Below are positions 7,881-58,242 of a DNA stretch of 64,000 bases, piece by piece. The stretch is taken from the NCBI RefSeq assembly GCF_016595435.1, contig NZ_JAENIJ010000016.1, positions 1 to 64,000 on the forward strand, in the 5' to 3' direction. The position numbers were made by a program, and so were the translations under genes. The notes beneath the pieces were generated by a model. The model searched no databases. It had not been told where the DNA came from and saw only the letters and a program-made list of their open reading frames with translations. This DNA is from Luteolibacter pohnpeiensis. GTDB lineage: Bacteria > Verrucomicrobiota > Verrucomicrobiia > Verrucomicrobiales > Akkermansiaceae. How positions within the stretch are numbered: the first letter of the stretch is position 1; the number at the start of each line of letters is the position of its first letter.

Positions 7881-8945
7881 TTATCCGAGCACGTCGTCCA
7901 TTGCCGTGATCAGCTCCTGCATGGTCTCGGTGGTTTCGTTGCCCATGTTGGAAATACGGAATGTCAGACCTTTGATTTTTCCGTAGCCGCCGTTGATCAC
8001 GAAGCCGTGTTTGCTCTTCAGCTCTTTCATAAAGTCCGAAAGGTCGAGGCTTTCGGGAGTTTTGAAGCAGGTCAGCGAGACCGATTGGTGGCCTTCCGGC
8101 GCGAAGTTTTCGAAGCCATGGCGGGCACCCCACTCATGAATCAGCTGATTGTTCGAGCGGTGGCGGGCGAAGCGGGCCTCGAGTCCTTCCTTGTGGATTT
8201 CTTCGAGAATGTGCTGGAGCCCGAAGATGTGGGAAATCGACGGGGTCGAGGGCGTGTTGTTCTTTTCCGCGTTCTTGGCGAACTCGATGAAATCGAAGTA
8301 GTAACCGCGGTTCGGCTGAACCTTGGCGCGCTCGATCGCAGCTTCGGAGCAGGCAAAAATGGTCAGTCCAGGCGGCAGCGCGAGTGCTTTTTGGACACCG
8401 GCCAAAAGCACATCGATGCCGAGTGCGTCCATCGGCGTCGGCACGGCGGAAAACGACGAAACGGTATCCACGACCAACAAAACATCCGGGAACGATTTAA
8501 CCACTTTGGCGATGGCCTCGAGATCGACCATCACGCCGGTCGAGGTTTCGTTATGGATGAGGGTGACGAGGTCAAAACCGCCTTCTTCAAGCTTTTGACG
8601 AACGGCTTCAGGATCGATCGTTTCGCCCCATTCGGCTTGGATCTTGTCCGCTTCCAGGCCGAGTTTTTTCGCAACATCGAACCATTTGTCTGAGAAGGCT
8701 CCGTTGCAAAGGTTGAGCACTTTTTTCGCGCAGAGGTTGCGCAGTGAAGCTTCCATCACGCCCCAGGCGGACGAGGTGGAAAGGAAAACCGGGCGGGTGG
8801 TTCCGGCGATTTCCTGCAGACCGGGTTGGGTTGAAGCATACAACGCCTCGAACTCCGCGCCACGGTGACCGATCATCGGCCTGCACATGGCGGCGTAGGT
8901 TTCTTTCGAGACGTCGATGGGGCCTGGAATGAAGAGTTTTGACAT
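7881..8945 (-). CDS. class V PLP-dependent aminotransferase
   Basis: 354 residues of the alanine-glyoxylate / serine-glyoxylate aminotransferase fold. The start MSKLFIPGPIDV, the region MIGHRGAEF, the cofactor aspartate in VDTVSSF and the Schiff-base lysine in VQKALALPPG are typical. The C-terminal domain ends with FRISNMGN. Members use serine, alanine or phosphoserine, and substrate cannot be set from sequence. It lies 43 nt downstream of dapA on the same strand and has its own terminator, so a dapA-aminotransferase operon is plausible. Confidence 0.88.
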   Translation of the reverse strand: MSKLFIPGPIDVSKETYAAMCRPMIGHRGAEFEALYASTQPGLQEIAGTTRPVFLSTSSAWGVMEASLRNLCAKKVLNLCNGAFSDKWFDVAKKLGLEADKIQAEWGETIDPEAVRQKLEEGGFDLVTLIHNETSTGVMVDLEAIAKVVKSFPDVLLVVDTVSSFSAVPTPMDALGIDVLLAGVQKALALPPGLTIFACSEAAIERAKVQPNRGYYFDFIEFAKNAEKNNTPSTPSISHIFGLQHILEEIHKEGLEARFARHRSNNQLIHEWGARHGFENFAPEGHQSVSLTCFKTPESLDLSDFMKELKSKHGFVINGGYGKIKGLTFRISNMGNETTETMQELITAMDDVLG

Positions 8946-16597: not shown

Positions 16598-17824
16598 ATG
16601 CGAATTCCGCTTGGGATTTTCTTAGGTGCTTTTCTCATCGGATTTTTAAGTTCGAGGATGTCAAAACCATCCGCCGCCGAAGTGAAATCAAAGCCAGTTC
16701 GGCAGCGGGAAAGGAGCGTGACGGTGACTTCCAGCTCATTGGATGATGCAGTGAATCGTTGGAAGAATTCGGACGGTGAGTATTCTATTTTGGATCCATT
16801 TGCGTCGGAGTGGTCTAATTGGACGGATGATCAATTACGCGCTGCATTGGATGAAGGTGTCAAAGATCCCCGCATCGCGTTGAGTTTGAGCAATGAAAAC
16901 AAACTCTTGAATCTACTATTTGGTGAATGGTGTCGTCGGGACCTTGATGCATGCATCCGCTGGTTGGAAGAATTGCCATCCGAGACGATCCAGCGACAGT
17001 TGAGCAGTATATTGAGTTCCAACTGGCCGGATGATCGGGCGATGGAAGGTTTGGATTATGTCATGGCTCATCGAGAAATGTTTATCTCAACCCGATCGGT
17101 CGGCTACGGAGAAATCCTTGGCAAGGCGATCAAACTGGCTGCGAAAAATGGGGTCACGGAAGTTCTCTCAACACTCGAATCGATAAAGGCGGGTGGACTA
17201 GACTCATTTTATGCCAAGAACGTCGAATTTCCTGAAGGTTTTGATTTCTCAGCTTTATACGATCATGCCAAGGATGCCGAATTGTTAAAGAAGGGTGCCT
17301 GCTTCTTCGGTGGTTCGTGGATGGAGCAAGATTCGGAAGGGGCATTTGATGCTCTAATCTCGGATGAAGCAGTGAGCAATTTTGATCAATTATTTACCGA
17401 TATTCCAAGCTCCTCCCGCGATTCAGAGCAGTTACAGCAAGGAATCAATCGGACAAAGTGGCTGGCTGAAAAGTTCAATGACATGCAGTATGAAGATGCC
17501 GCCGAATACGCAACGTCTCTCGCCGATTCACTGAAGCAGCAACCGGAGGCATGGCAGGAATTGGTCAATGATTTGCAAGAAAAAGAAATCAGAATCGATC
17601 TTATCAAAAAATCATTCGAAACAACTTGGAATCTGGTGCGACTTCGCAATCAACTGTTTACCTTGAAGGAACCCGAAGACGGTGTGGAAGTTTTGGAAAG
17701 AATCAATCAAGGTCCGGCTAGATACCTATTTCAGACCAGACAGAAACTTCAAGAAACATTGGATAAAATGAAAGTTGCTCCAGATCGGTCAGATGCAATT
17801 CTAAATCGAATTTTTCATCCCTAA
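16598..17824 (+). CDS. anchored helical protein, first gene of paralogous two-gene module (family A)
   Basis: 408 residues. An N-terminal hydrophobic segment (LGIFLGAFLIGFL, about 5-18) should anchor it, leaving a mostly helical, acidic domain outside the cytoplasm. Features shared with the paralogues at 55820 and 27903 include the EW-x-x-WT-(D/E) segment near residue 71 (shared with 55820 only), WCRRDLDACIRWLEELPSE at about 111-129 and FPEGFDF at 211-217. No catalytic motif is seen. The stop overlaps the ATG of the next gene (TAATG), so translation is coupled. Base composition is more AT-rich than in flanking housekeeping genes. Function unknown; an alpha solenoid is a guess from the helix pattern. 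Confidence 0.85.
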   Translation: MRIPLGIFLGAFLIGFLSSRMSKPSAAEVKSKPVRQRERSVTVTSSSLDDAVNRWKNSDGEYSILDPFASEWSNWTDDQLRAALDEGVKDPRIALSLSNENKLLNLLFGEWCRRDLDACIRWLEELPSETIQRQLSSILSSNWPDDRAMEGLDYVMAHREMFISTRSVGYGEILGKAIKLAAKNGVTEVLSTLESIKAGGLDSFYAKNVEFPEGFDFSALYDHAKDAELLKKGACFFGGSWMEQDSEGAFDALISDEAVSNFDQLFTDIPSSSRDSEQLQQGINRTKWLAEKFNDMQYEDAAEYATSLADSLKQQPEAWQELVNDLQEKEIRIDLIKKSFETTWNLVRLRNQLFTLKEPEDGVEVLERINQGPARYLFQTRQKLQETLDKMKVAPDRSDAILNRIFHP

Positions 17825-19008
17825 TGATGCAAGGATTCCGACATAAGATCGCTCTGGGTTTTCTGGCTCTCTTTGGCACAAGCATGGGTTGGTTTGTGGG
17901 TAAGCCAGCTCACGAATCAACGAATCGATCCAGTGGGGTTGCACTCAATGCCCTGAATAGTAAGTCGATTCTTCGTTCGAATACGGGTAAAGCTCAATTG
18001 CAATCCCATTCATTTAGGAACTTGGCCCAACGAATGGAATTGAATGAGGGTTTGCCACAGGAATTGATGAATTGGATTTCGCGGAGTCATACGGACCAGC
18101 TATACCGGGAGTTGCTTTCATCCGATTCACCGGTCCGAATTTCGACATCGGAACTCCTGCTCCGACGGGCCATCGCGAGGGAGATCTATCGCCGCGAGGG
18201 GATCAAATGTCTCGATCGAGTTGCTTTTGAAGGCAATGAACAGGCAATGGGTTTCCTTTTCTGCACAATTGCTAGTGCTGAACCGGAGTTGGCCAAATCT
18301 GAGTTGCAAGCGAGAGGACTCTCGATGGAGTTGAATCTGGTGCTGCAGATGACCATCGACGCCTTGAAAGCATCTGCCGTGCGGGGAGCATCGGAATTAC
18401 TCAAATCAGAGAATCTCTGGGGCGAAGGGGTTGGTATGGGTTATACTGAATTTGCCGAAGATTTTAATTTCAGAGAGTATCTTTCACAGACGAGCTCCTC
18501 CGCCGGTAAAGTCGAGGCGTTCAAGTATTTGGCGGCAAAAGATCCCGATGAAGCTGCCGCTTGCATGCTGGAAGGGTTCCAATGGGAAATCGCCGGAAGC
18601 ATGCTCGACGGACGATCGGCTGTGGCAGGAAGACAGGAAGCGATCAAATGGATGGCGGACGAGATTGGGAAGGTTCCGGATCGTTATCGAAAAATGGAAC
18701 TCAATGATCTAGCGCGGCATTGTGATGCAAGAGATTCAGAAATGATGATGAATCAATTGGGTGCGAGGCAGGATCGCTTGGATTTTGCGGTTAGCTCAAT
18801 CAGCCAATTTCGCGATGAGAAAATCGAATATTTTGCGACTCTGCCTGAAGAGTTCCGTATTAGTGTAATGAATCAATGGCTTGAAAGCATTCGTCTGACA
18901 AACTGGGGTAAGGATCCCGAAATGGCTTTGAAGATGATGGATCAAATGAAGATTCCTGCCGAGCAGTACGAGGCATTGCTGAAAGTTCAGTCAGGTGTGG
19001 CGAACTAA
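17824..19008 (+). CDS. anchored helical protein, second gene of module (family B)
   Basis: 394 residues with an N-terminal hydrophobic anchor (KIALGFLALFGTSMGWFVG, about 8-26) and a long helical region. The paralogue is at 57043: both share REIYRREGIKCLD-like sequence near 120, the motif F-A-x-D-F-N-F (210-216 here) and a KYLAAKDPD segment near 236-244. The same-position motif in family A suggests A and B descend from one ancestor. Start ATG 17824 overlaps the preceding stop; a second in-frame ATG follows directly. No known domain. Confidence 0.83.
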   Translation: MMQGFRHKIALGFLALFGTSMGWFVGKPAHESTNRSSGVALNALNSKSILRSNTGKAQLQSHSFRNLAQRMELNEGLPQELMNWISRSHTDQLYRELLSSDSPVRISTSELLLRRAIAREIYRREGIKCLDRVAFEGNEQAMGFLFCTIASAEPELAKSELQARGLSMELNLVLQMTIDALKASAVRGASELLKSENLWGEGVGMGYTEFAEDFNFREYLSQTSSSAGKVEAFKYLAAKDPDEAAACMLEGFQWEIAGSMLDGRSAVAGRQEAIKWMADEIGKVPDRYRKMELNDLARHCDARDSEMMMNQLGARQDRLDFAVSSISQFRDEKIEYFATLPEEFRISVMNQWLESIRLTNWGKDPEMALKMMDQMKIPAEQYEALLKVQSGVAN

Positions 19009-24128: not shown

Positions 24129-24794
24129 ATGCCCGAGGAAGACGACGAGAAAGGAGACAATCGCGATGAAATACTCGCTCAAGCCTACGCGAAAACCCGT
24201 AAGAGCCTGATAGCCAGGTTGGATAACTGGGAGGATCAGCGAACTTGGGACGAGTTTTACCAGACTTACTGGCGCCTCATTTACGCGGTAGCGGTGAAGG
24301 CGGGCCTCAGATCGGAGGAAGCGTTCGACTGTGTGCAGGAGACCATTCTCTCGATTGCGAAACAGAGCAAAAAGAAGCTGTATGATCCTGAACAGGGTTC
24401 GTTCAAGACATGGTTGATGAACATGACCCGCTGGCGGATTAATGATCAATTCCGCAAACGGAAAAAGGACACCGCCATGACAGGTGGAGAGTGGGAGGAT
24501 GACCGGAAAACGGCGGTGATCGATCGTGTCGAAGATCCCAACGGCGACATGCTTTCCCGGCTTTGGGACGTGGAGTGGAAAAAAAATATCGCTGACGCGG
24601 CGCTATCCAGGGTGAAGGCCCAGGTTTCGCCGAAGCAGTATCAGATTTTCCACTACTATGTGATCAAGCAATGGGATGCGAAAAAAGTGCAGGATCATTT
24701 GAATGTCAGCATGGCGCAGGTGTATTTGGCGAAACACCGCGTAGGAAGTGTGTTGAAACGAGAACTCGCCAAACTTGAAGATGATGCCGAATAA
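24129..24794 (+). CDS. ECF-type RNA polymerase sigma factor
   Basis: 221 residues with sigma region 2 (YQTYWRLIYAVAVKAGLRSEEAFDCVQETIL, then GSFKTWLMNMTRWRINDQFRKR) and region 4 near the C-terminus (VSPKQYQIFHYYVIKQWDAKKVQDHLNVSMAQVYLAKHRV). A GAGAGG Shine-Dalgarno lies just ahead of ATG 24129. The gene overlaps the Ser/Thr kinase downstream by 14 nt. Such pairs are common in Verrucomicrobiota and Planctomycetota. No anti-sigma factor is visible, so the kinase may take that regulatory role. Confidence 0.9.
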   Translation: MPEEDDEKGDNRDEILAQAYAKTRKSLIARLDNWEDQRTWDEFYQTYWRLIYAVAVKAGLRSEEAFDCVQETILSIAKQSKKKLYDPEQGSFKTWLMNMTRWRINDQFRKRKKDTAMTGGEWEDDRKTAVIDRVEDPNGDMLSRLWDVEWKKNIADAALSRVKAQVSPKQYQIFHYYVIKQWDAKKVQDHLNVSMAQVYLAKHRVGSVLKRELAKLEDDAE

Positions 24795-27366
24795 GCACCG
24801 GCCCGATCCCAGTATTCCTGATCACGAGATCCTGCGCAAAATTGGCGGAGGAGCTTACGGTGAAGTTTGGCTTGGACGTGGGGTCACCGGTGCCCTGCGG
24901 GCCATCAAAGTCGTCTGGCGGGAGGATTTCGAAGACGAAAGAGGGTTTGAGCGGGAGTTCGAAGGAATTCTGAAATTCGAGCCGATTTCGCGAGATCATC
25001 CGGGGTTGGTGAACATTTTACACGTCGGCCGCAGTCCGGACGGGGTTTCGTTCTATTACTATGTGATGGAACTGGGCGATGATGTCCGCACCGGCCAGGA
25101 CATCAACCCGATCGAATACGAGCCGCGCACCCTGCGTGCGGATGCCAAGCAGGCGGTTAGTCCGCAGTTGGAGACTAGCGTCTGCATCGATGTCGGACTG
25201 CGTTTGGCCCAGGCGCTGAATCACTTGCACGAGTTGGGACTGGCCCATCGTGATGTGAAGCCGTCGAACGTGATTTTCGTAAACGGCAAAGCAAAATTGG
25301 CGGATATCGGCCTGGTTGCGGCCAGAGATCAGCGCACTTTTGTGGGCACGGAAGGCTTTGTCCCACCGGAGGGGCCGGGTTCTGCACAGGCGGACATCTA
25401 CAGCCTTGGCAAAGTCCTGTATGAAATCGCGACGGGAAAGGATCGACTCGATTTCCCGGAATTGCCGGAAAATTTGCCCTCCGGCCCGGAGCAAAAGCGC
25501 TGGCTCGAACTCAACCGCATCATTTGCGAAATTTGCGAACCGCGGCTTTCCAGACGGACGATTTCAACTGCCTCAGAAACCGTGGACGCCCTGCGCCGTC
25601 TGCAAAAAGGCAAGAAACGTAGACGACGTGGTGTCGGTCGTGCCGCCTGGGTGGTTTCCTTGATTTTGCTCTGTTTTTCGGTGTGGGCGGGCAGCAAGCT
25701 TTTCGTGACGGAGCATCCCTGGAAGGAGGAGGTGGTGCCGGTGGTCATGCGTAAAATCAAGGTGAATAGCTTTCCCCAGGGAGCCGAGGTTTTTGAAAAT
25801 GGCGAGTTGCTGGGGACGACGCAGCTTGAATTGCGCGAGAAACCCGTAGGTGAAACCATTACACTGACCTTTAAGCTGAAAGGCTACCGGGATGCGGTAT
25901 TAACCCAACGGGTGGAAAAATCGGATGTCGATGATGTCCCTCAGGTTTTCTTCAAGGAACTCGAGCGTTATGCACCTCCGGAAACCGGGGAAATGTGGAC
26001 CGATCACCTGGGTTTGAATTATCCGCCTGTAGGAGATCGGCATGAAGGCGCTGGCTACGTCCAAGATGGGCCATGGCAGCAATATGTGGGTGTCACCGGA
26101 ATTCCCGGAGATCCGCCACTTTCGATGGATTTTTCCGAAAACGGCAAGTCGGTCAGGATTGTATTGGTGAAGGAAAAGGAAGCATTCGCATTTTGCGATT
26201 GGTGGCGCAATGGCGCGATGGAGCAGGGGTATTTGACCAAGGATTTTGAGGTGATTCCGGTGTTTCCGGCGGCGGCTGAAGTGCCGGGACTGCCTGAGAA
26301 TGCAGTCAAAGAAAAACTGACACCGTTCAAAATTGTGGTGCAGCCGATTCGATATGGCACCTTGAAGTTAGTCAGTGAGCCACCTGGGGCAGAGGTGTAT
26401 GTGAATAAAATTCCGGTAGGAACCGCGACTTCTCCAGTCTTTGTGCCTCGGGTGAAACCCGGGCCAGTGGAGGTTTGGTTCATTCTGGAAGGCTACACTC
26501 CGGATGTGAAAAATATCGAGCTCAAGCGTAACGAGACTCTGGAGGTGACTGGTAAGCTGAAGCCGAATCAAGGAGTGGTGTTTGGCCGCGATTGGGAAAA
26601 CGGCATTGGCATGAAGTTTGTGCCAGTGGGGCCGGATCTGATGGTATCTGCCTGGGAAACCCGAGTCCGGGATTTCCAACTTTACCTCAAAGAAACCGGG
26701 ACCATGCCTCCGAAATCTCCGGATTTCCCGCAAGGCCCTGATCATCCTGTTGTGAACGTTTCACGCCCTGATGCCGTGAAATTTTGCGATTGGCTGACCC
26801 ATCGTGAACAGCAGCACGAGCGGATTGCCACGTTTCATCAATATCGCTTACCGACCGACTTCGAATGGAGCAAGATGGCCGGCATCGAAGAAGAGCCCGG
26901 CGTTGAACCCGGTGCGCGCGATAACGTGAAAACTCGGACCTATCCATGGGGAGGTGGATGGCCGCTTACCAGCAAGGTTGGGAACTTTGCGGACATTTCA
27001 GCAGCCATGGCACCCGGCATGTCCAGTGATCGCACCATTCCCGGATATGATGACGGCTTCCCTTACACAGCGCCGGTCGGTTCTTTTCCGCCCAATCCCT
27101 ACGGACTGTATGACATCAGCGGAAACGCGGAAGAGTGGGTCTCCGACGACTACTCCAAGGTGAAGGGCCCGATCACCCTGGGAGTTCTTCGCGGTGGTGG
27201 CTGGAACACCTATCAACGTGAAAACCTTCTCAGTGGCGCACGCAATGTGGTGCCTTATGATTTCCACGATAACATCTATGGATTCCGGGTCGTGCTTGCA
27301 AAGATACCTCAGAATCGCGACAACCCGCTTGGCTACCCGGATTATAGCGAGAAGGGCAGCCACTAA
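24781..27366 (+). CDS. Ser/Thr protein kinase with PEGA repeats and SUMF1-like domain
   Basis: 861 residues from ATG 24781. Order: kinase domain about 13-270 with GGGAYGEV, Lys43, HRDVKPSN (156-163) and DIG (175-177) in place of DFG; one membrane helix about 288-308; two PEGA domains (near 325-385 and 527-590); and a C-terminal sulfatase-modifying-factor fold from about 610 (YRLPTDFEWSKMA, YGLYDISGNAEEWVSDD, GFRVVLA). The kinase should face the cytoplasm and the rest the envelope. The catalytic residues are intact, so an active kinase is likely. The SUMF1 part lacks an evident active-site cysteine pair and may serve binding. It overlaps the sigma gene and is 13 nt from osmC. Confidence 0.92.
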   Translation: MMPNKHRPDPSIPDHEILRKIGGGAYGEVWLGRGVTGALRAIKVVWREDFEDERGFEREFEGILKFEPISRDHPGLVNILHVGRSPDGVSFYYYVMELGDDVRTGQDINPIEYEPRTLRADAKQAVSPQLETSVCIDVGLRLAQALNHLHELGLAHRDVKPSNVIFVNGKAKLADIGLVAARDQRTFVGTEGFVPPEGPGSAQADIYSLGKVLYEIATGKDRLDFPELPENLPSGPEQKRWLELNRIICEICEPRLSRRTISTASETVDALRRLQKGKKRRRRGVGRAAWVVSLILLCFSVWAGSKLFVTEHPWKEEVVPVVMRKIKVNSFPQGAEVFENGELLGTTQLELREKPVGETITLTFKLKGYRDAVLTQRVEKSDVDDVPQVFFKELERYAPPETGEMWTDHLGLNYPPVGDRHEGAGYVQDGPWQQYVGVTGIPGDPPLSMDFSENGKSVRIVLVKEKEAFAFCDWWRNGAMEQGYLTKDFEVIPVFPAAAEVPGLPENAVKEKLTPFKIVVQPIRYGTLKLVSEPPGAEVYVNKIPVGTATSPVFVPRVKPGPVEVWFILEGYTPDVKNIELKRNETLEVTGKLKPNQGVVFGRDWENGIGMKFVPVGPDLMVSAWETRVRDFQLYLKETGTMPPKSPDFPQGPDHPVVNVSRPDAVKFCDWLTHREQQHERIATFHQYRLPTDFEWSKMAGIEEEPGVEPGARDNVKTRTYPWGGGWPLTSKVGNFADISAAMAPGMSSDRTIPGYDDGFPYTAPVGSFPPNPYGLYDISGNAEEWVSDDYSKVKGPITLGVLRGGGWNTYQRENLLSGARNVVPYDFHDNIYGFRVVLAKIPQNRDNPLGYPDYSEKGSH

Positions 27367-27902: not shown

Positions 27903-29159
27903 ATGATTTCACACTCGTGGAAAGTCGGATTGATTTCCGGGATCGGCGGCCTTTGCATCGGCTGGCTTGCTCATCTGGCAAGTTCGTCATCAACGGATTC
28001 TACGGATTCCGCGGCTGAAATGCGTTCTTCAGAACCGATTCGTCGGCAACGCGAGCGCGAGAATCAGGATGCGAAAACCGCAGCTCGTTGGATCGATCGG
28101 TTGGAGCATGACGAACTCGCAAATGTCACCGGGGAGATTCCGACGGAGGATTTTCATGCGGTCCTCGCCGGTATCATGAATAACGTCTGGGGCAAACTCT
28201 CGAATGAAGATTATTATCGCTTGCAGGCTTTGATTGATGAATGGGCTCAGCGCGATTCCGACGGCGCCCTCGCTTGGGTAAGGAGCTTGCGGCAGCCTCA
28301 GCAGCGGAGTGCCGGCTTATCCTGCATCGCTGCTGCACTTGCCGAAACCGATCCGCAAAGAGCCTTCGATATCTACACGGAACAGGATACGGTTTATTTC
28401 AGCCTTGGCCGGGAAAAACTTTTGAAGCTAATCACCGATCTTAGCCAAGAGGCAACTGCAGCGGGACCGAAGGCGTTGATTGAACTCTGGAAACGAATTC
28501 CAAAAAATGGGACCAATGGCACCATGGGATTTTCCCTAAACTATCCCGATGGTTTCGATTATGCTGAGATGATGGATCTGATGGCAAACGAAGGCATCGG
28601 GTTGTACCAGCAAAGTGGTGATTCCAATGACAAACCGATCGAACCTACGAGCCCGCTTGCCGAGTGGGCAGTCAAAGATCCGAATGCAGCATTCGACTAT
28701 CTGGTCGAAAAGTTGGGCAGTGGCATGCGACTCGATGCTTATTGGTCTCTTACCGGTAAGATGAAAGAAAAATGGGGCAACGAGGCGACACAGGTATGGT
28801 TGGGTCAACAGTTTGCCAGTTTGGACACCACGCAGCGTAGCGACTTCTTGAAAGGAACCATGATGCTCAACTATCCCGGTCAGCTGAAAAGCATGATCGA
28901 TCATATACCGGATCCGTCGACCGCACAGGAGGCGCGCTATGAAGCGATGCAAGCAGGTATCGAGAAGGGACTGACAAATTTCGATATTCTGACGGACTTG
29001 CCAACCGATCAAAAATTGGAAGTGATCGAGCGTCTGCGTGGTTATGAAGACACCAACTATTTGGAAAAAACGCTGATCAACTGGGACATTCCTCGCGATC
29101 GCATCGATGCCATTCTCCAGCACGCCACTGAGCCAAACCAAACCTCGGGCACCAATTAG
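27903..29159 (+). CDS. anchored helical protein, solo family-A paralogue
   Basis: 418 residues with an N-terminal hydrophobic anchor (VGLISGIGGLCIGWLAHLA, about 8-26), then a polar linker and a helical domain. WAQRDSDGALAWVRSL at about 114-129 matches the WCRRDLDACIRWLEEL region of 16598, and YPDGFDY at 214-220 matches its FPEGFDF. The C-terminus (IPRDRIDAILQHA) resembles the end of 16598 (DAILNRIF). Unlike the other two loci there is no family-B partner behind it. The gene ends with a 4-nt overlap against the convergent sialate esterase gene. Confidence 0.83.
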   Translation: MISHSWKVGLISGIGGLCIGWLAHLASSSSTDSTDSAAEMRSSEPIRRQRERENQDAKTAARWIDRLEHDELANVTGEIPTEDFHAVLAGIMNNVWGKLSNEDYYRLQALIDEWAQRDSDGALAWVRSLRQPQQRSAGLSCIAAALAETDPQRAFDIYTEQDTVYFSLGREKLLKLITDLSQEATAAGPKALIELWKRIPKNGTNGTMGFSLNYPDGFDYAEMMDLMANEGIGLYQQSGDSNDKPIEPTSPLAEWAVKDPNAAFDYLVEKLGSGMRLDAYWSLTGKMKEKWGNEATQVWLGQQFASLDTTQRSDFLKGTMMLNYPGQLKSMIDHIPDPSTAQEARYEAMQAGIEKGLTNFDILTDLPTDQKLEVIERLRGYEDTNYLEKTLINWDIPRDRIDAILQHATEPNQTSGTN

Positions 29160-51938: not shown

Positions 51939-53234
51939 ATGGCCGCACTCGCATTTCAAGCTCTCCCAGGATTCCGTGATTTCACCCCTCGTGAATGCGC
52001 GGTGCGAAATTATTTGTTCGAGACTTGGCGTTCGGTCGCACGCCGCTGCGGCTACGTGGAATACGAAACACCGATCGTAGAGGACACCGGACTTTATCTG
52101 AAAAAATCAGGCGGTGAACTTTCGTCCCAGTTGTTCCGATTCGAAGATCAAGGCGGACGCGATGTCACCCTGCGCCCGGAAGTGACGGCTTCGCTCGCTC
52201 GCTTGGTTGCCGAGCATCAGCGGAATTTCCCCAAACCTCTCAAGTGGTTCGAGATCGGCCAATGCTTCCGCTATGAAAAGCCGCAAAAGGGCCGTGGACG
52301 CGAATTCCACCAGTTCAACGTCGATATTTTCGGCGAAGCGGGCCCTGCGGCCGACGCGGAATTGATCTCGCTGGCGATCGAAACGATGCTCGCTTTCGGC
52401 TTCGTCGCCGGTGATTTCGTGGTCCGTGTATCGGATCGAAATGCCTGGATCAGCTTCGCGGAAAAGCACGGCATCGCCGAAGATCGCATCCCGGAATTTC
52501 TCGGCATCATCGACAAGATCGAACGCGAAAAGCCAGAGGTTCTGGAGGCCAAATTGGCAGCTCTTTCTCTGACCGTCGCCGAGGTGAAAGGTTTCATCGC
52601 CGATCCGGCCAACGCGTCGCCAGCCTACACTGCAATCAAGGAGGACCTCACCGCCCGCGGGTTAGGGGAGTTCGTCGAACTCGACCTGTCCATCGTGCGC
52701 GGCCTCGCTTACTACACGGGGGTTGTGTTCGAGGTTTTCGACTCAAGCAAGTCGATGCGCGCCGTCGCCGGCGGAGGTCGTTACGACACTCTCATCTCGA
52801 CCATTTCCGAAGGCACGGTCGATCTTCCTGCCACCGGTTTCGCGATGGGTGATTACGTCATTCGCAACCTAATCGAGGAAACCACTCACGCGGCCATGCA
52901 AATGGAAGTCTGGCTGCAACGGAACTTTGCCGGCTGCGATGTCTACGTGGTCGTCGCCGACGAAGAAAAGCGTGCAGAATCATTGAAACTCGTTACAGAT
53001 CTGCGCCGTGCAGGAATTTCTACGGATTTTCCATTAACGGCTGCGAAAGTCGGCAAACAGTTCCAAAACGCCGAAAAAGCAGGTGCCCGATTCGCCCTCG
53101 TCGTCGGCGCCGAATACCCCGAGCTCAAAGTCAAAATCCTCACCAGCCGCACTGAAGCCAGCGGCACTGCCGAAAACGCCGTCGAGTGGATCACCGACCT
53201 CCTCCACCAACCCGACGGCCCGCTTTTGGCCTGA
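51939..53234 (+). CDS. hisS: histidyl-tRNA synthetase
   Basis: 431 residues from ATG 51939 (MAALAFQALPGFRDF). Class II motif 2 (FEIGQCFRYEKPQKGRGRE) and TLRPEVTASLARL are clear. The histidine-binding motif reads VRGLAYYTG, with alanine in place of the more usual aspartate of RGLDYY; this version is normal in a subgroup that includes plant organelle enzymes, so it is not damage. The C-terminal anticodon domain contains GKQFQNAEKAGARFALVVG. The GxxExxY insertion lies directly behind its stop. Confidence 0.95.
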   Translation: MAALAFQALPGFRDFTPRECAVRNYLFETWRSVARRCGYVEYETPIVEDTGLYLKKSGGELSSQLFRFEDQGGRDVTLRPEVTASLARLVAEHQRNFPKPLKWFEIGQCFRYEKPQKGRGREFHQFNVDIFGEAGPAADAELISLAIETMLAFGFVAGDFVVRVSDRNAWISFAEKHGIAEDRIPEFLGIIDKIEREKPEVLEAKLAALSLTVAEVKGFIADPANASPAYTAIKEDLTARGLGEFVELDLSIVRGLAYYTGVVFEVFDSSKSMRAVAGGGRYDTLISTISEGTVDLPATGFAMGDYVIRNLIEETTHAAMQMEVWLQRNFAGCDVYVVVADEEKRAESLKLVTDLRRAGISTDFPLTAAKVGKQFQNAEKAGARFALVVGAEYPELKVKILTSRTEASGTAENAVEWITDLLHQPDGPLLA

Positions 53235-53241
53235 TCGTATC

Positions 53242-53262
53242 GAACCGCAGATCCACGCAGAT
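53242..53262 (+). repeat. left inverted repeat of the GxxExxY unit
   Basis: GAACCGCAGATCCACGCAGAT matches, at 18 of 21 positions, the reverse complement of 53674-53694. It begins 8 nt after the hisS stop and contains the first bases of the GxxExxY ATG. A further CGCAGAT follows at 53266-53272. Confidence 0.8.
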
Positions 53263-53668
53263 GAGCGCAGATTTTTTATTTAAAGAAGAAACCGATGGAA
53301 TTATCGGTGCTGCGTTTCAGGTATTGAATGAGATTGGGTGCGGATTTCACGAAAAGCCCTATGAAAACGCTCTTGTCGTCGAGTTCCGCCATCGCGCTTT
53401 CCCTTTCGAACAACAGACACGATTTCCAATTGTTTATCGGAATGTAAGAGTGGCGGAGTATGTGCCGGACCTGATTGTATTCGGTAAAATCATCGTCGAT
53501 ACCAAAGTGATCGACCGAATTACTGACCGAGAGATCGGCCAGATGTTGAATTATCTAAAGATTACGAACCTGTCAGTCGGACTGCTCCTTAATTTCAAAA
53601 ATCCGAGACTCGAATTTCGCCGGGTGGTGAAATCCACTCAATCCTTCATCAAGAAACCTCTTCAGTAA
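53261..53668 (+). CDS. GxxExxY family protein
   Basis: 135 residues from ATG 53261. The family motif appears as GCGFHEKPYENAL, and the rest (FPIVYRNVRVAEYVPDLIVFGKIIVDTKVI, then IGQMLNYLKITNLSVGLLLNFKNP) matches this family, which is related to the PD-(D/E)xK-like proteins and to intervening-sequence proteins. Function is unknown. The gene is framed by inverted repeats and separates hisS from aspS, as if inserted. Confidence 0.9.
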   Translation: MSADFLFKEETDGIIGAAFQVLNEIGCGFHEKPYENALVVEFRHRAFPFEQQTRFPIVYRNVRVAEYVPDLIVFGKIIVDTKVIDRITDREIGQMLNYLKITNLSVGLLLNFKNPRLEFRRVVKSTQSFIKKPLQ

Positions 53669-53673
53669 CGTTT

Positions 53674-53694
53674 ATCTGCGAACATCTGCGGTTC
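53674..53694 (-). repeat. right inverted repeat of the GxxExxY unit
   Basis: Reverse complement reads GAACCGCAGATGTTCGCAGAT, differing from the left copy only in the central three bases. It lies 15 nt before the aspS ATG. Confidence 0.8.
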
Positions 53695-53709
53695 AAAAAA
53701 TTTTTCAAA

Positions 53710-55512
53710 ATGCGCACACATCATTGCAACGAACTCCGCGACTCCGACATTGGCCAAACCGTGACTTTGATCGGATGGGTGAATTCCGCCCGCGACCACG
53801 GTGGGGTGATCTTTATCGACTTGCGCGACCGCGAAGGCCTGACGCAATGTGTTTTTCGGCCTGAAGAAAGCCCGACGATTGCCCAGCTCTCTCACACGCT
53901 TCGCGAAGAAGACGTGGTGCAGGTGGTCGGTTTGGTTTCCAAGCGTCTGGCCGGCAGCGAAAATCCGAAAATGGCGACCGGAGCGATCGAGATTGTCGCG
54001 AAGGAGTTGAAAATCGTCAACAAGGCGGAGGTGCTGCCGTTCCAGCTCGATAAGGAGCTTTCGAACGAGGACCTGCGGATGAAATACCGCTACCTCGACC
54101 TGCGTCGCGCGCGCATGAGCAAGAATATCCGCCAGCGTGCGATTATCACCTCGGCCGCGCGTCGCTATTTGGATGAGTCCGGATTTTTTGAAGTCGAAAC
54201 GCCGATTTTGTCGAACCCGACACCGGAAGGCGCACGCGATTTCCTGGTGCCTTCGCGCCTGAATCCGGGTCGTTTCTACGCATTGCCGCAAGCTCCGCAG
54301 CAATACAAGCAGCTGATGATGGTGGCCGGTTTGGAAAAATATTACCAGATCGCCCGATGCTTCCGGGACGAGGATTTGCGTGCCGACCGCCAGCCGGAAT
54401 TCACTCAGATCGACATCGAAGCGAGCTTCGTCGGTCAGGAAGACATCATCAAGTTGGTCGAAGGTTTGCTGGCCTCGATGTTCAAGGCGGGCCTTGGCAT
54501 TGATGTGCCAACGCCATTCCCGCGCATGACCTATCGCGAAGCGGAAGACATCTACGGTTCCGACAAGCCGGACACCCGCTATGACATGAAGATCACGGAC
54601 TTGGCGGAGGTTTTCTCCAGCACCGAGTTCAAGATTTTCCGCAGCACCCTCGACAACGGCGGAGTTGTCCGGGCGATCAATGCCAAGGGCTATGCCGGGG
54701 TGACCACCGGTCAGATGAATCGCCTCAACGAAATCGCGATCCAAGCCGGCCTGCCGGTGAAGACGCTGGCGTTCGTGAAATATGAAAATGGCGAGTTCAA
54801 GAGTCCGCTGTGGAAATTCTTCACCGATGCCGAGAAGGACGCGCTTGTTTCGACCCTCACCATCGAAGAGGGAGACATCGTGTTCTTTGTCGCTGGCAAA
54901 CGCGAAAGCGTCAGCACCATTCTGGGGCGCGTGCGGGTCGAAATCGCGGAAATGATGGATCTGGTCAAAGATTCAACCGCCTACAATTTCCTTTGGGTGG
55001 TTGATTTCCCACTGCTCGCGCAGGACGAAGAAACCGGCGACTGGGTCGCGGTGCACCATCCGTTCACTCGGCCAAATCCGGACGACTTGGAGAAGCTGAA
55101 ATCCGGCGATTACGCTAACGTTCGCGCCGTAGCATACGACGTGGTGCTGAACGGTTACGAGCTGGGTGGTGGATCGATCCGGATTCACGAAAAAGACCTC
55201 CAGTCGACCATGTTCTCCGCGCTAGGCATCGACGCAGAAGAGCAGCAGATCAAATTCGGCCACTTGCTCGACGCGTTCCGCTTCGGTGCACCGCCACACG
55301 GTGGTTTGGCGCTTGGTCTCGATCGGATCGCCATGCTGATCGCCGGTGAGGACAGCATCCGCGAAGTAATCGCGTTCCCGAAAAACAACAAGGGAGCGGA
55401 CCTGATGGCGCAAAGCCCGTGTCAGATCGATTTCAAATTGCTGCGCGAAGTCTACGTGCAGTCGACTTGGAAAGATCCGAAGCTGGCTGCGGAGAAATCC
55501 ACTCAAGCTTGA
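53710..55512 (+). CDS. aspS: aspartyl-tRNA synthetase
   Basis: 600 residues, the long bacterial form with an OB-fold anticodon domain (GWVNSARDHGGVIFIDLRDREG), catalytic core motif 1 (YRYLDLRRARM), motif 2 (YQIARCFRDEDLRADRQPEFTQID) and motif 3 (GGLALGLDRIAML) with the GAD insertion in between. Terminates in a strong hairpin at 55533. Whether it charges only tRNA-Asp or also tRNA-Asn was not decided. Confidence 0.96.
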   Translation: MRTHHCNELRDSDIGQTVTLIGWVNSARDHGGVIFIDLRDREGLTQCVFRPEESPTIAQLSHTLREEDVVQVVGLVSKRLAGSENPKMATGAIEIVAKELKIVNKAEVLPFQLDKELSNEDLRMKYRYLDLRRARMSKNIRQRAIITSAARRYLDESGFFEVETPILSNPTPEGARDFLVPSRLNPGRFYALPQAPQQYKQLMMVAGLEKYYQIARCFRDEDLRADRQPEFTQIDIEASFVGQEDIIKLVEGLLASMFKAGLGIDVPTPFPRMTYREAEDIYGSDKPDTRYDMKITDLAEVFSSTEFKIFRSTLDNGGVVRAINAKGYAGVTTGQMNRLNEIAIQAGLPVKTLAFVKYENGEFKSPLWKFFTDAEKDALVSTLTIEEGDIVFFVAGKRESVSTILGRVRVEIAEMMDLVKDSTAYNFLWVVDFPLLAQDEETGDWVAVHHPFTRPNPDDLEKLKSGDYANVRAVAYDVVLNGYELGGGSIRIHEKDLQSTMFSALGIDAEEQQIKFGHLLDAFRFGAPPHGGLALGLDRIAMLIAGEDSIREVIAFPKNNKGADLMAQSPCQIDFKLLREVYVQSTWKDPKLAAEKSTQA

Positions 55513-55532
55513 TAGGAAGATCCGGCACTTTC

Positions 55533-55565
55533 ATGGCCCCTTGGCAACACGAGGGCCATTTTTTT
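55533..55565 (+). terminator. rho-independent terminator after aspS
   Basis: ATGGCCC (55533-55539) pairs with GGGCCAT (55553-55559), followed by a seven-T run. Confidence 0.9.
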
Positions 55566-55784
55566 GCTCCATGGATCGTAACGTCCAAGTAGCGATCAAG
55601 CATTCATCACAAGATTAACGAATTTTAAAATTTGTTGATAATAGGCACGAGGCCTGCGAGTAGACGGATTGGCCATACAAAACCGGCCCGTCTGCTCCTT
55701 CTCGGAAAAAATAGCTCCTTGCCGAGGTGACAGACGGGCTGTGATTTTGAAATGAGCCCCAATTTGCTCATGGGCTGCATTTTC
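55566..55784. other. intergenic region with long hairpin
   Basis: No credible gene; the only open frame is a short minus-strand one with no domain. GCCCGTCTG (55686-55694) pairs perfectly with CAGACGGGC (55731-55739), and inside it CTCGG (55701-55705) pairs with CCGAG (55722-55726) around an A-rich loop. No T-run follows, so it is not a standard terminator. It stands about 45 bp ahead of the promoter of the second module. Confidence 0.5.
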
Positions 55785-55813
55785 TTGCATTCCAACATGC
55801 ACTTGGTTAATAG
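55785..55813 (+). promoter_or_regulatory. leaderless-type promoter ahead of the second module
   Basis: TTGCAT (55785-55790) and TAATAG (55808-55813) are spaced by 17 bp; 6 nt follow before ATG 55820. Most positions from the -35 box to the ATG match the promoter at 16563-16591. Confidence 0.55.
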
Positions 55814-55819
55814 GTTTTC

Positions 55820-57046
55820 ATGCGGATTCCGCTTGGCTGTTTCCTGGCTGCAATCTTGATCGGTTTCCTCGGATCCCGGTTTTTCAAAGATACTTCTCCA
55901 GTCGACGATTCTGTTTCTCCTGAACGTCGCGAACGGAAGGCAAATCGTGACCGACGAACCTTGCAGCAGCAGATGGAAGATTCGGTCGCTCAGGCGCGCC
56001 TGGCGGGGAAATTTGATCCGTTCTCCGGTGAGTGGGCGGATTGGACCGAAGAGGAACTCAAGTCGGCATTGGAAGAGGGGCTGAAAGATCCTGCCGTGGT
56101 GTTAGACGGAAAGGAGCAAAGATTGGTTCGTATGCTATTCCGTGCCTGGTGCGATAAAAATTTGGAGAACGCGATTGCGTGGTGGGAGACAACGCCATCC
56201 GAGTTCATGCAAGTGAGACTATCTGGAGTAATTGGCGCTGCTTGGCCGGAAGATCGGGGAATGGAAGGGCTTGAATTTGCCTGTGCTCATTCGGAACAAT
56301 TTTTTGGCTATGGAAGTGTGGCAAGTGGACAGATCATGCAGAAGGGGCTTCAACAAGCGGTTGCAGGTGGAGTCAACGAGGTGGCCTCAGCCTTAAAAAT
56401 GCTGCGCGAAAGTGGGCTTGATTCCCGATATACGATGCCCGTGAAATTTCCCGATGGGTTTGATTTCGTAGCACTGGCCGATACCGATGAAGGAAGACGG
56501 GTGATTGAAAGTGAAAGTTGTTTCTTCGGTGGAGAATGGATGAAGCAGGATCGTGAAGCCGCATTTCAAAGTCTGGTATTGGATCGATCATCGTTTATGA
56601 AAGTCTTCCAGCTATTCAACGACCGACCACTGCAGAATTATGGAGATACCACGACGGAAGAAGTAGAGCGCGCTGGATGGGTTGCGCAAAAGTTGAGCAA
56701 AAACTCGATCCTTTCGACGCCAGGAGTGGCCTCGAATGGGGCCCTATCTATGAAAGGGCGACCATCGATGCTCGCTGCCTATACCGAAGGATTCGAAGAC
56801 ACAGTTGTTCGCACAATCGTTGCTGAGGACATTCTCAGAAATTCGTCATCCAGTGGAGAAATGGTGATCAGTTATTTGAACCAGCTGAAGGACCCTGAGT
56901 GGCGGATCAGCCTATTGGAAAACACCGACTCTATTGTTTTAACGATGTCGGAAAAGCAGCTGCGCGAAAATTTGTCAAACTGGGGAGCTTCGACTGAGAA
57001 AATCGAGACCATCATCAAGCGATACGCACTCACATTGAGACCATGA
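55820..57046 (+). CDS. anchored helical protein, first gene of second module (family A)
   Basis: 408 residues, exactly the length of 16598, and starting with the same MRIPLG. Hydrophobic anchor at about 5-18, then the segments EWADWTEEEL (71-80), WCDKNLENAIAWWE (110-123), WPEDRGMEGLEF and FPDGFDF (210-216), followed by CFFGGEWMKQDREAAF as in the first copy. The central third is better conserved than the C-terminal third. The stop overlaps the next ATG as ATGA. Function unknown. Confidence 0.85.
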   Translation: MRIPLGCFLAAILIGFLGSRFFKDTSPVDDSVSPERRERKANRDRRTLQQQMEDSVAQARLAGKFDPFSGEWADWTEEELKSALEEGLKDPAVVLDGKEQRLVRMLFRAWCDKNLENAIAWWETTPSEFMQVRLSGVIGAAWPEDRGMEGLEFACAHSEQFFGYGSVASGQIMQKGLQQAVAGGVNEVASALKMLRESGLDSRYTMPVKFPDGFDFVALADTDEGRRVIESESCFFGGEWMKQDREAAFQSLVLDRSSFMKVFQLFNDRPLQNYGDTTTEEVERAGWVAQKLSKNSILSTPGVASNGALSMKGRPSMLAAYTEGFEDTVVRTIVAEDILRNSSSSGEMVISYLNQLKDPEWRISLLENTDSIVLTMSEKQLRENLSNWGASTEKIETIIKRYALTLRP

Positions 57047-58242
57047 CACCTTGGCGGAAATTTTGGATGCTGTCTGTGATCAGCTTGCTAGGTCTTGGCT
57101 TGGGATGGGCTCTCGGCTCAAACTCGGACCATGATGAACGAGGTGAGGGAAAAATCGTTACCTCCGCACGATCTCCAACGAGAACATCGACTCGAATACA
57201 TTCGAATTCTGCATCTTCGCCGCATCGTTATGCGGAGCTGCTTCGCCGATACCGAGATCGTGGAAATGTCTCGCCTGAGTTGGCACGATATATCGCGAAG
57301 TGCAGCGGAGACCAGCTGGAAGCCTTGATCATTAACCCTGGTGTGGATGAAGGCTTATCGTTTGCAGGCTATCCCTTGGCTGCTCAGGTTCGCGAAACAG
57401 TCGCTGCTGAAATGTTTCGTCGCCGTGGACTGGCATGTCTCGACTGGATTACCGACAGCATTTCTGACGCTGTGGCAATCACTCTTGCACGAGAAGTCGC
57501 TAAAACGAATCCAGACTTTGCAATTCAGAAATTAAAAGGGATGGGACGCTATGTTGGTATTGTCCCTAACATGATTCAATCTGCAGTCATCAATCGCGCG
57601 GCGATGCGGAGCGCTCCCGAATTGATTGAGTTACTGAAAGATAATAAATTTTCTGTTCAGGCAGTTACAAATTTCGCACCCGACTTCAATTTTACTGAAT
57701 ACATCAACGATATGAACGGGGCGGGAAAGGTCACCAATTCAGCTTGGAAATTTTTGGCTGCGAAAGATCCGGATCAGACGCGATCCCTGTTGATCGAGGG
57801 ATTAGGTGGCTCGTCTGGCAATGGCTTTTCGGCTGCGGTGGAAGGGATGGCTATTATCAATGGCGAAACCGAAGCGGCGAAATGGTATGTCTCAATGCTA
57901 GATGAAATCCCCGAGACGACGCGCAAGGAAAGCTTGCGAATGCTGGCACTAAGCGACGCGAGCCCTCGACTTGAAGCGGTATTTAACGGTTTGCAAAGCG
58001 AGCAAGATCGCGCCGAATTCGGAGCCAATCTGTTGAATAACTATAGAACGAAAACCGAATGGTTGTTAGATGAATCTGTGGAGGTTCGTGGCAAAATCAT
58101 CGAGCACTGGATGAAGAACACCATGGCTCGCACCAAGGGACCACTCAATGCGAAGGAACTCATCAACACGATGGACAAGTTGAATTTTCCCGAGGAGTCG
58201 CGGGAAAAACTGCTTAGCCTTCTGCCACCGACGAGCAACTAA
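57043..58242 (+). CDS. anchored helical protein, second gene of second module (family B)
   Basis: 399 residues. N-terminal anchor (MLSVISLLGLGLGWALG, about 9-25), then a helical domain with MFRRRGLACLDW near 124, FAPDFNF at 211-217 and KFLAAKDPD near 237, each aligned to 17824. It overlaps family-A gene 55820 by 4 nt, showing the same gene order and coupling as the first module. It converges on ligA, 6 nt away. Confidence 0.83.
   Translation: MTPWRKFWMLSVISLLGLGLGWALGSNSDHDERGEGKIVTSARSPTRTSTRIHSNSASSPHRYAELLRRYRDRGNVSPELARYIAKCSGDQLEALIINPGVDEGLSFAGYPLAAQVRETVAAEMFRRRGLACLDWITDSISDAVAITLAREVAKTNPDFAIQKLKGMGRYVGIVPNMIQSAVINRAAMRSAPELIELLKDNKFSVQAVTNFAPDFNFTEYINDMNGAGKVTNSAWKFLAAKDPDQTRSLLIEGLGGSSGNGFSAAVEGMAIINGETEAAKWYVSMLDEIPETTRKESLRMLALSDASPRLEAVFNGLQSEQDRAEFGANLLNNYRTKTEWLLDESVEVRGKIIEHWMKNTMARTKGPLNAKELINTMDKLNFPEESREKLLSLLPPTSN

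Follow-up and report, generated by a model that had tools for sequence, protein, structure and literature searches.

Paired membrane-anchored helical repeat proteins of Luteolibacter pohnpeiensis and their kinship with the outer domains of membrane-tethered ECF sigma factors

Two gene pairs and one solo gene, found in a window of 64,000 nucleotides of Luteolibacter pohnpeiensis DNA (the whole stretch analysed here), encode homologous proteins for which a functional clue lies in another kind of gene: the part that follows their membrane anchor is related to a domain that elsewhere in the same genome is fused to ECF sigma factors. The two genes of a pair are kept strictly together, have been duplicated as a unit and are under purifying selection. 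Based on this we suggest, tentatively and at somewhat less than an even chance, that the two proteins form a cognate heteromeric complex of anchored solenoids at the outer face of the inner membrane, a sigma-less kin of an ECF module that would serve in envelope recognition. The original prediction for this region, a five-member family built as repeated two-gene modules, is confirmed and was in fact understated; it missed a wider superfamily of anchored proteins with W-x-x-x-D-P repeats, which has membrane-tethered ECF sigma factors among its members.

We refer to the first gene of a pair as A, to the second as B and to the solo gene as C; all five lie on the forward strand. Pair 1 consists of an A gene at 16598..17824 (an anchored helical repeat protein of 408 aa) and a B gene at 17824..19008 (394 aa), C is located at 27903..29159 (418 aa), and pair 2 comprises A at 55820..57046 (408 aa) and B at 57043..58242 (399 aa). 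All five reading frames, with lengths of 394-418 residues, are thus present as first described. The genes of both pairs do overlap, as had been claimed; the extent needs correction, being 1 nt in pair 1 (TAATG, with the start of B within the stop of A) and 4 nt in pair 2 (ATGA). The G+C content of pair 1 (16598-19008) is 0.472, below the 0.538 of the window. A hydropathy scan found one hydrophobic segment and no second in 5/5 proteins, which bears out the single N-terminal membrane helix proposed for them; the anchor is encoded at 16598..16651 (A) and 17848..17901 (B) in pair 1, at 27924..27977 in C, and at 55820..55873 (A) and 57061..57114 (B) in pair 2. A GxxxG motif is present in the anchors of both pair 1 proteins and of B in pair 2, and absent from that of A in pair 2.

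The five proteins carry the motif [FY]-[PA]-x-[GD]-F-[DN]-[FY], called the FDF box here, at exactly the residues that had been reported: FPEGFDF at 211-217 (17228..17248) and FAEDFNF at 210-216 (18451..18471) in A and B of pair 1, YPDGFDY at 214-220 (28542..28562) in C, and FPDGFDF at 210-216 (56447..56467) and FAPDFNF at 211-217 (57673..57693) in A and B of pair 2. Among 20,000 shuffles per window protein the motif arises in 0 to 0.035%. In trimmed sequences of the family at large, the strict box is found in 24/31 A, 27/31 B and 7/10 C proteins, and in 0/60 proteins of the sigma-factor modules described below; it is present too in three further genes (L058, L059 and L301). This distribution makes it a mark of the A/B/C branch and its nearest kin. 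A profile of the W-x-x-x-D-P repeat matches A of pair 1 at 16886-17035 and C at 28197-28364.

That both genes of a pair come from one ancestor had been argued from the shared position of the motif, and profile comparison gives the same answer. With five sequences on each side, hhalign aligned A and B at a probability of 96.4% (E 1.2e-9, 360 columns), and with 31 on each side at 99.8% (E 2.7e-29, 394 columns); A against C reached 100% over 326 columns and B against C 99.9% over 376, while reversed or column-shuffled controls reached at most 1.1%. By these profile alignments, A, B and C are homologous. The C gene scored 85 bits with the A profile vs 46 bits with the B profile. When 31 A, 31 B and 10 C sequences are placed in a tree, A forms one clade (SH-aLRT 99) and B another (SH-aLRT 100), so that the A/B split is older than all copies seen and whole pairs must have been duplicated. 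The C rows fall near the root of this 72-row tree as two sets of five, and form one clade (83) in a wider tree of 94 rows.

Searches of profiles and databases matched no characterised family, in line with the earlier remark that no described family with this motif was known. No match of A, B or C exceeded any cut-off in Pfam or NCBIfam. The TPR, PPR and HEAT models of Pfam stayed below their cut-offs, the sole TPR match of A, B or C being TPR_14 with 11.0 bits vs a cut-off of 23.5, and the N-terminal domain of MgtE (PF03448, cut-off 25.9) scored 16.9 and 14.3 bits at different places in two proteins. With 7 proteins as queries and E up to 1, no family of the PADLOC anti-phage models was matched; a PHROGs search gave nothing below E 0.039, and the sequences of the PDB nothing below E 0.008. 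Across the domain, PADLOC and PHROGs searches, no enzyme, ligand-binding or output domain was found in A, B or C.

The pairing of A and B is strict. In 11 genomes, counting A matches over 100 bits and B matches over 80 bits, a B gene directly follows all 31 A genes on the same strand. The junction is a 4-nt overlap in 26/31 cases (B was taken to begin at whichever in-frame start codon came closest to a 4-nt overlap, a choice that favours this value), a 1-nt overlap in 1/31 and a gap of 4 to 185 nt in 4/31. Since these loci had been chosen by their A matches, B was searched independently in 260 genomes; the 32 listed matches with E below 1e-25 all adjoin an A gene, one of them at a contig edge. 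Remoter pairs, of genes of ~340-380 aa with a 4-nt overlap, occur at L300 and L301 and, in the L. pohnpeiensis genome itself, at L059. The distance matrices of A and B correlate with r = 0.809, and 0/5000 reshuffles of partners within genomes gave a value as high (mean 0.411, max 0.701). In terms of sequence distances, this shows that A-B pairs have been copied as units without swapping of partners; it is no proof of contact, as joint duplication alone makes the trees of partners agree, and such a mirror-tree comparison cannot separate contact from linkage. The same point speaks for another account, in which A and B are mere tandem duplicates, adjacent paralogues that do not act together and whose coupling is a by-product of joint duplication. 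We consider this account improbable, because 31/31 pairs in two genera have the same order and mostly the same overlap, because every strong B match listed has an A, and because A and B remain two separate clades although 15/57 superfamily genes of the L. pohnpeiensis genome do stand alone.

Further copies had been expected in the genome, and they exist: the L. pohnpeiensis assembly (254 contigs, 4.67 Mb) has three more A-B pairs, arranged in tandem on a single contig (C88), and ~57 genes of the wider superfamily. When 260 genomes belonging to the same GTDB family were searched, the A profile matched at least 36 genomes at E <= 0.001, in 7/16 genera, and gave strong matches (E below 1e-25) in at least 11, in two genera; these are lower bounds, as 7 candidates were scored per genome (6 or 7 in all family searches, that is with the A profile, the B profile and the profile of the sigma outer domain). 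A twelfth genome (G153) has a pair broken by a contig edge. In a draw of 288 genomes from the phylum, 11 were matched, and the strong matches all fell within the same family. With strong A matches in 11/260 genomes the A-B family is patchy, and any role it has is therefore dispensable. Decaying copies exist as well: in genome G170, an A gene (L131, 1499-2254) is truncated to ~250 aa and has a TGA inside the match.

For the analysis of selection, close copies were compared in 10 pairs, eight of them A or B and two of them sigma-less array genes from the superfamily at large, alongside 4 hand-picked control genes; some of the start positions were unrefined. In the eight comparisons of A or B, dN/dS is 0.17-0.32, indicating purifying selection, and the two array genes are 89-90% identical between close copies. 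A comparison of genome G170 with G176 gives 71-74% identity for the orthologues of A and B vs 92-99% for four genes near one pair, and a dS of 0.53-0.76 for A and B vs 0.29-0.37 for these neighbours; as dS is raised in A and B too, part of the identity gap is not protein-level selection. The low identity, together with the many divergent copies, the tandem arrays and the variation in presence and absence, would fit a recognition or conflict repertoire, that is, fast-evolving variable receptors or immunity-like proteins of the cell surface that deal with self and non-self or with phage. In our estimate this is quite unlikely: the dN/dS values are purifying, not diversifying, the raised dS takes part of the identity gap out of selection on the protein, no PADLOC model and no PHROGs family matched significantly, and neighbouring genes recur in at most 4 loci.

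This last figure comes from an all-against-all BLAST of the flanking open reading frames, which found no widely common neighbour and a widest cluster of 4 loci. Other superfamily genes lie 0.3 to 1.3 kb from the pairs at L122, L126 and L131. In the window, pair 2 is preceded (53186-55820) by a gene of 125-160 aa and then a gene of 600 aa, and the same order recurs in another genus (L128, 685-5400), with an A-B pair ~2.5 kb further on; we assume, from its resemblance, that the 600-aa gene in both is an aspartyl-tRNA synthetase. The two pairs are not mutual closest relatives in the tree, and the shared gene order possibly reflects a preferred site.

The A profile also reaches proteins with clear W-x-x-x-D-P-x-x-A repeats, and thereby a much larger superfamily. 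A repeat profile gave 96 matches at E <= 1 in the L. pohnpeiensis genome, and ~57 genes were counted as members (three open reading frames, at L222 2610, L224 2293 and L224 3381, were excluded as non-members); they are arranged as 13 two-gene groups, arrays of 3, 6 and 7 genes, and 15 single genes. The array of seven (L206, 2905-11664) consists of consecutive anchored repeat genes without a sigma domain. At E <= 1e-6 the repeat was found in 46/288 genomes of the phylum, in 31/151 genera. The superfamily members tested gave no Pfam or NCBIfam match besides the sigma domain. A gene adjoining one pair of long-repeat genes (L061, 7084-8163) may encode a REP-type transposase, which it resembles.

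Four genes of the L. pohnpeiensis genome encode ECF sigma-70 regions 2 and 4, followed by a membrane helix and then the repeat domain; they are among six with open frames over 400 aa out of the 30 matches to sigma-70 region 2 above cut-off in this genome. Pfam finds both sigma-70 regions in the fusions scanned, and neither Pfam nor NCBIfam finds regions 2 and 4 in any of the five window proteins. At least 85/260 genomes of the family are matched by a profile built from the outer domain of the fusions, and 20 stretches taken from these matches, mostly picked for long open frames, hold 17 sigma fusions. Like the A genes, the fusions tend to come with a partner: an anchored member of the superfamily lies directly downstream in 18 of the 22 fusions with downstream sequence (16 of the 17, the four from the L. 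pohnpeiensis genome, and one each at L123 and L119), namely in 15/16 of those from the stretches (8 with a 4-nt overlap), in 3/4 from the L. pohnpeiensis genome and in neither L123 nor L119. In genome G009 (L279), sigma-less pairs share one array with a sigma-bearing pair.

The kinship between the two kinds of pair is supported by profile alignment at several points. A matches the sigma outer domain at 94.8% (E 5e-8, 123 columns) and the partner genes at 97.6% (E 2.8e-12, 379 columns), with controls at most at 1.1% in both cases; B matches the outer domain at 93.5% over 218 columns, and the match of C is weaker, 69% over 216 columns. With this kinship and their hydrophobic helix, the window proteins have the same order, a membrane helix and then this outer domain, which makes them kin of the tethered sigma factors, not members of that group. 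The 94-row tree mentioned above included 12/31 A, 12/31 B, 10 C and 20/23 sigma fusions (without L119, L297 and L298); it is a quick tree, with warnings of long branches and uneven composition, and its N1 and N2 labels were given by gene position. In it, 18/20 sigma-bearing and 6/6 labelled sigma-less first genes fall in one clade (SH-aLRT 99), and the partners, as second genes, in another (97). The presence of the sigma domain changes 7 times on this tree, at least 3 of the changes being forced by well-supported branches; judging from this tree, several losses or gains of the sigma domain are probable. The division between A/B/C and the sigma modules has weak support (73), and a single split into first and second genes across both lineages, with A on the side of the sigma-bearing first genes, was neither borne out nor rejected by the AU test (p = 0.164).

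A closer link by gene neighbourhood was considered and rejected. Among the 26 loci that hold the 31 pairs, a sigma fusion is close by in one (L123) and an ordinary ECF gene in another (L132), and two further sigma genes lie 1.4 and 5.1 kb from pairs. As a sigma gene is close to a pair in so few of the loci, it is homology and not neighbourhood that carries the signalling link. In L123 (3468-10842), 171 bp separate two tandem A-B pairs from a divergently oriented sigma factor gene that includes such a repeat domain; in L132, an A-B pair is followed after 135 nt by the ECF sigma gene (218 aa, 8185-8841). Within the window, two overlapping genes occupy 24129-27366, one for an ordinary ECF sigma factor (221 aa) and one for a Ser/Thr kinase that has PEGA and FGE-sulfatase domains. 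An OsmC-like gene separates these two from the C gene downstream.

How the proteins sit in the membrane is suggested mainly by the fusions, whose sigma domain must lie in the cytoplasm; this places the part past the membrane helix outside, and by homology A, B and C would have the same topology; the charges around the anchor helix are compatible with either orientation. A hydrophobic segment near the N terminus (mean hydropathy of at least 1.4) is present in 27/31 A and 29/31 B proteins. In the window proteins it is preceded by at most 8 residues, leaving no place for an output domain, and an anti-sigma domain ahead of the helix is absent, the hydrophobic window starting at residue 1 to 9 and Pfam giving no match. 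GxxxG is found in the anchor helix of 30/31 B proteins (10.4 +/- 2.4 when shuffled, max 20) and 22/31 A proteins (8.6 +/- 2.2, max 17), and in 2/60 proteins of the sigma-module lineage. A coiled coil after the anchor of sigma-module proteins seemed likely on visual inspection and was rejected: compared with shuffles, heptad counts were in excess in 3/10 unlabelled array genes alone.

Structure models of pair 1, built from shallow five-row alignments, are all-helical with a mean pLDDT of 64.9 (A) and 64.7 (B), and neither contains a strand of 3 residues or more; no beta-propeller domain was found. In both, the FDF box is modelled at the start of a helix that follows a mid-protein loop, with modest or low confidence at that place. 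Foldseek gave no match to the PDB at E <= 0.001 for either model. Among the neighbours listed by VIA-align, the best was in both cases a chain from a spliceosome SF3B entry, with Z 8.3 and rmsd 8.1 over 166 residues for A and Z 8.9 and rmsd 8.5 over 277 for B, values below the level trusted for helical repeats; we take the matched chains to be the HEAT protein SF3B1. A shared solenoid fold had been anticipated for the two genes of a pair, and these low-confidence models are at least compatible with it, both being all-helical with HEAT-like solenoids as their best weak matches. Neither unrelated folds within a pair nor an already characterised family, the two outcomes that would have spoken against the original prediction, was thus encountered.

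An all-helical fold with large HEAT-type solenoids as nearest, if weak, neighbours, in proteins with no recognisable enzyme, ligand-binding or output domain, would also suit a structural scaffold: pairs of anchored solenoids would build a layer or a platform for assembly on the inner membrane, without any sensing, and the sigma fusions would have recruited the same domain. We regard such a scaffold as unlikely; a structural component would not usually be so patchy in its presence or occur in so many diverged copies per genome, and the same pair architecture recurs joined to sigma factors.

We thus return to the cognate A-B complex as the preferred reading. A and B would be paralogous single-pass proteins, each with an N-terminal anchor helix and a putative alpha-solenoid in which the W-x-x-x-D-P helical repeats have degenerated. 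Both come from a single two-gene unit, in most cases with a 4-nt overlap between the frames; the presumed A:B complex may be held together in part by GxxxG packing between the anchor helices. Another two-gene module would be the sigma-bearing relative of this unit; its gene 1 is predicted to combine a cytoplasmic ECF sigma factor with the same kind of anchor and solenoid, and its gene 2 to encode an anchored solenoid. As there is no room for a cytoplasmic output domain, A and B are taken to be coupled anchored solenoids with a recognition role at the envelope, either by themselves or together with the sigma modules; their most likely job would be the recognition of a ligand or partner there, feeding or tuning the tethered sigma modules. 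A bolder version, which we hold to be rather improbable, is that of one ancient two-gene receptor unit in two forms: one with a sigma-bearing gene 1 that would signal directly from receptor to promoter and need no anti-sigma factor, and the sigma-less A-B form, which would tune or compete with it by swapping or trapping partners and ligands, so that some bacteria would possess dozens of paired receptors. The kinship with sigma factors in any case gives a functional handle on a superfamily of ~57 genes in one 4.67-Mb genome, and a testable idea, paired anchored solenoids in signal transduction, with sigma-bearing and sigma-less versions within one array.

Both alpha-solenoids and tethered sigma factors are already known; a paired anchored module that occurs in two forms was not found described. 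In the literature covered (titles and abstract openings, with few subscription papers), neither the family nor such a sigma fusion came up. The likeness to the HEAT, ARM, TPR and PPR alpha-solenoids lies in the low-confidence all-helical models, whose neighbours are SF3B-type, importin and PPR chains; A, B and C differ in matching no Pfam cut-off of these groups and in having a repeat signature of their own, W-x-x-x-D-P, as well as the FDF box. Membrane-coat-like proteins of the Planctomycetes-Verrucomicrobia-Chlamydiae group, as presented in PMC2799638, are alpha-solenoids too, one of which was seen near membranes. They resemble A and B in the bacterial group and in the alpha-solenoid, predicted in our case, and differ from them as described there: A and B have no beta-propeller, and combine one anchor with a predicted solenoid in a two-gene unit. 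A further comparison is with tethered ECF sigma factors that have outer domains, such as IutY (ECF243), which according to PMC8999054 was shown to be freed by proteolysis; for the actinobacterial groups ECF48, ECF52 and ECF53 the same paper states that proteolytic release is expected, and further ECFs with C-terminal extensions appear in PMC8103513. The likeness is in the order of sigma domain, membrane helix and outer domain in the related modules; A, B and C, which have no sigma domain, resemble the part from the helix outward. The fusions found here differ from those in PMC8999054 in that their outer domain consists of unnamed helical repeats instead of zinc-finger anti-sigma or carbohydrate-binding parts, and in that a homologous anchored partner usually comes after gene 1.
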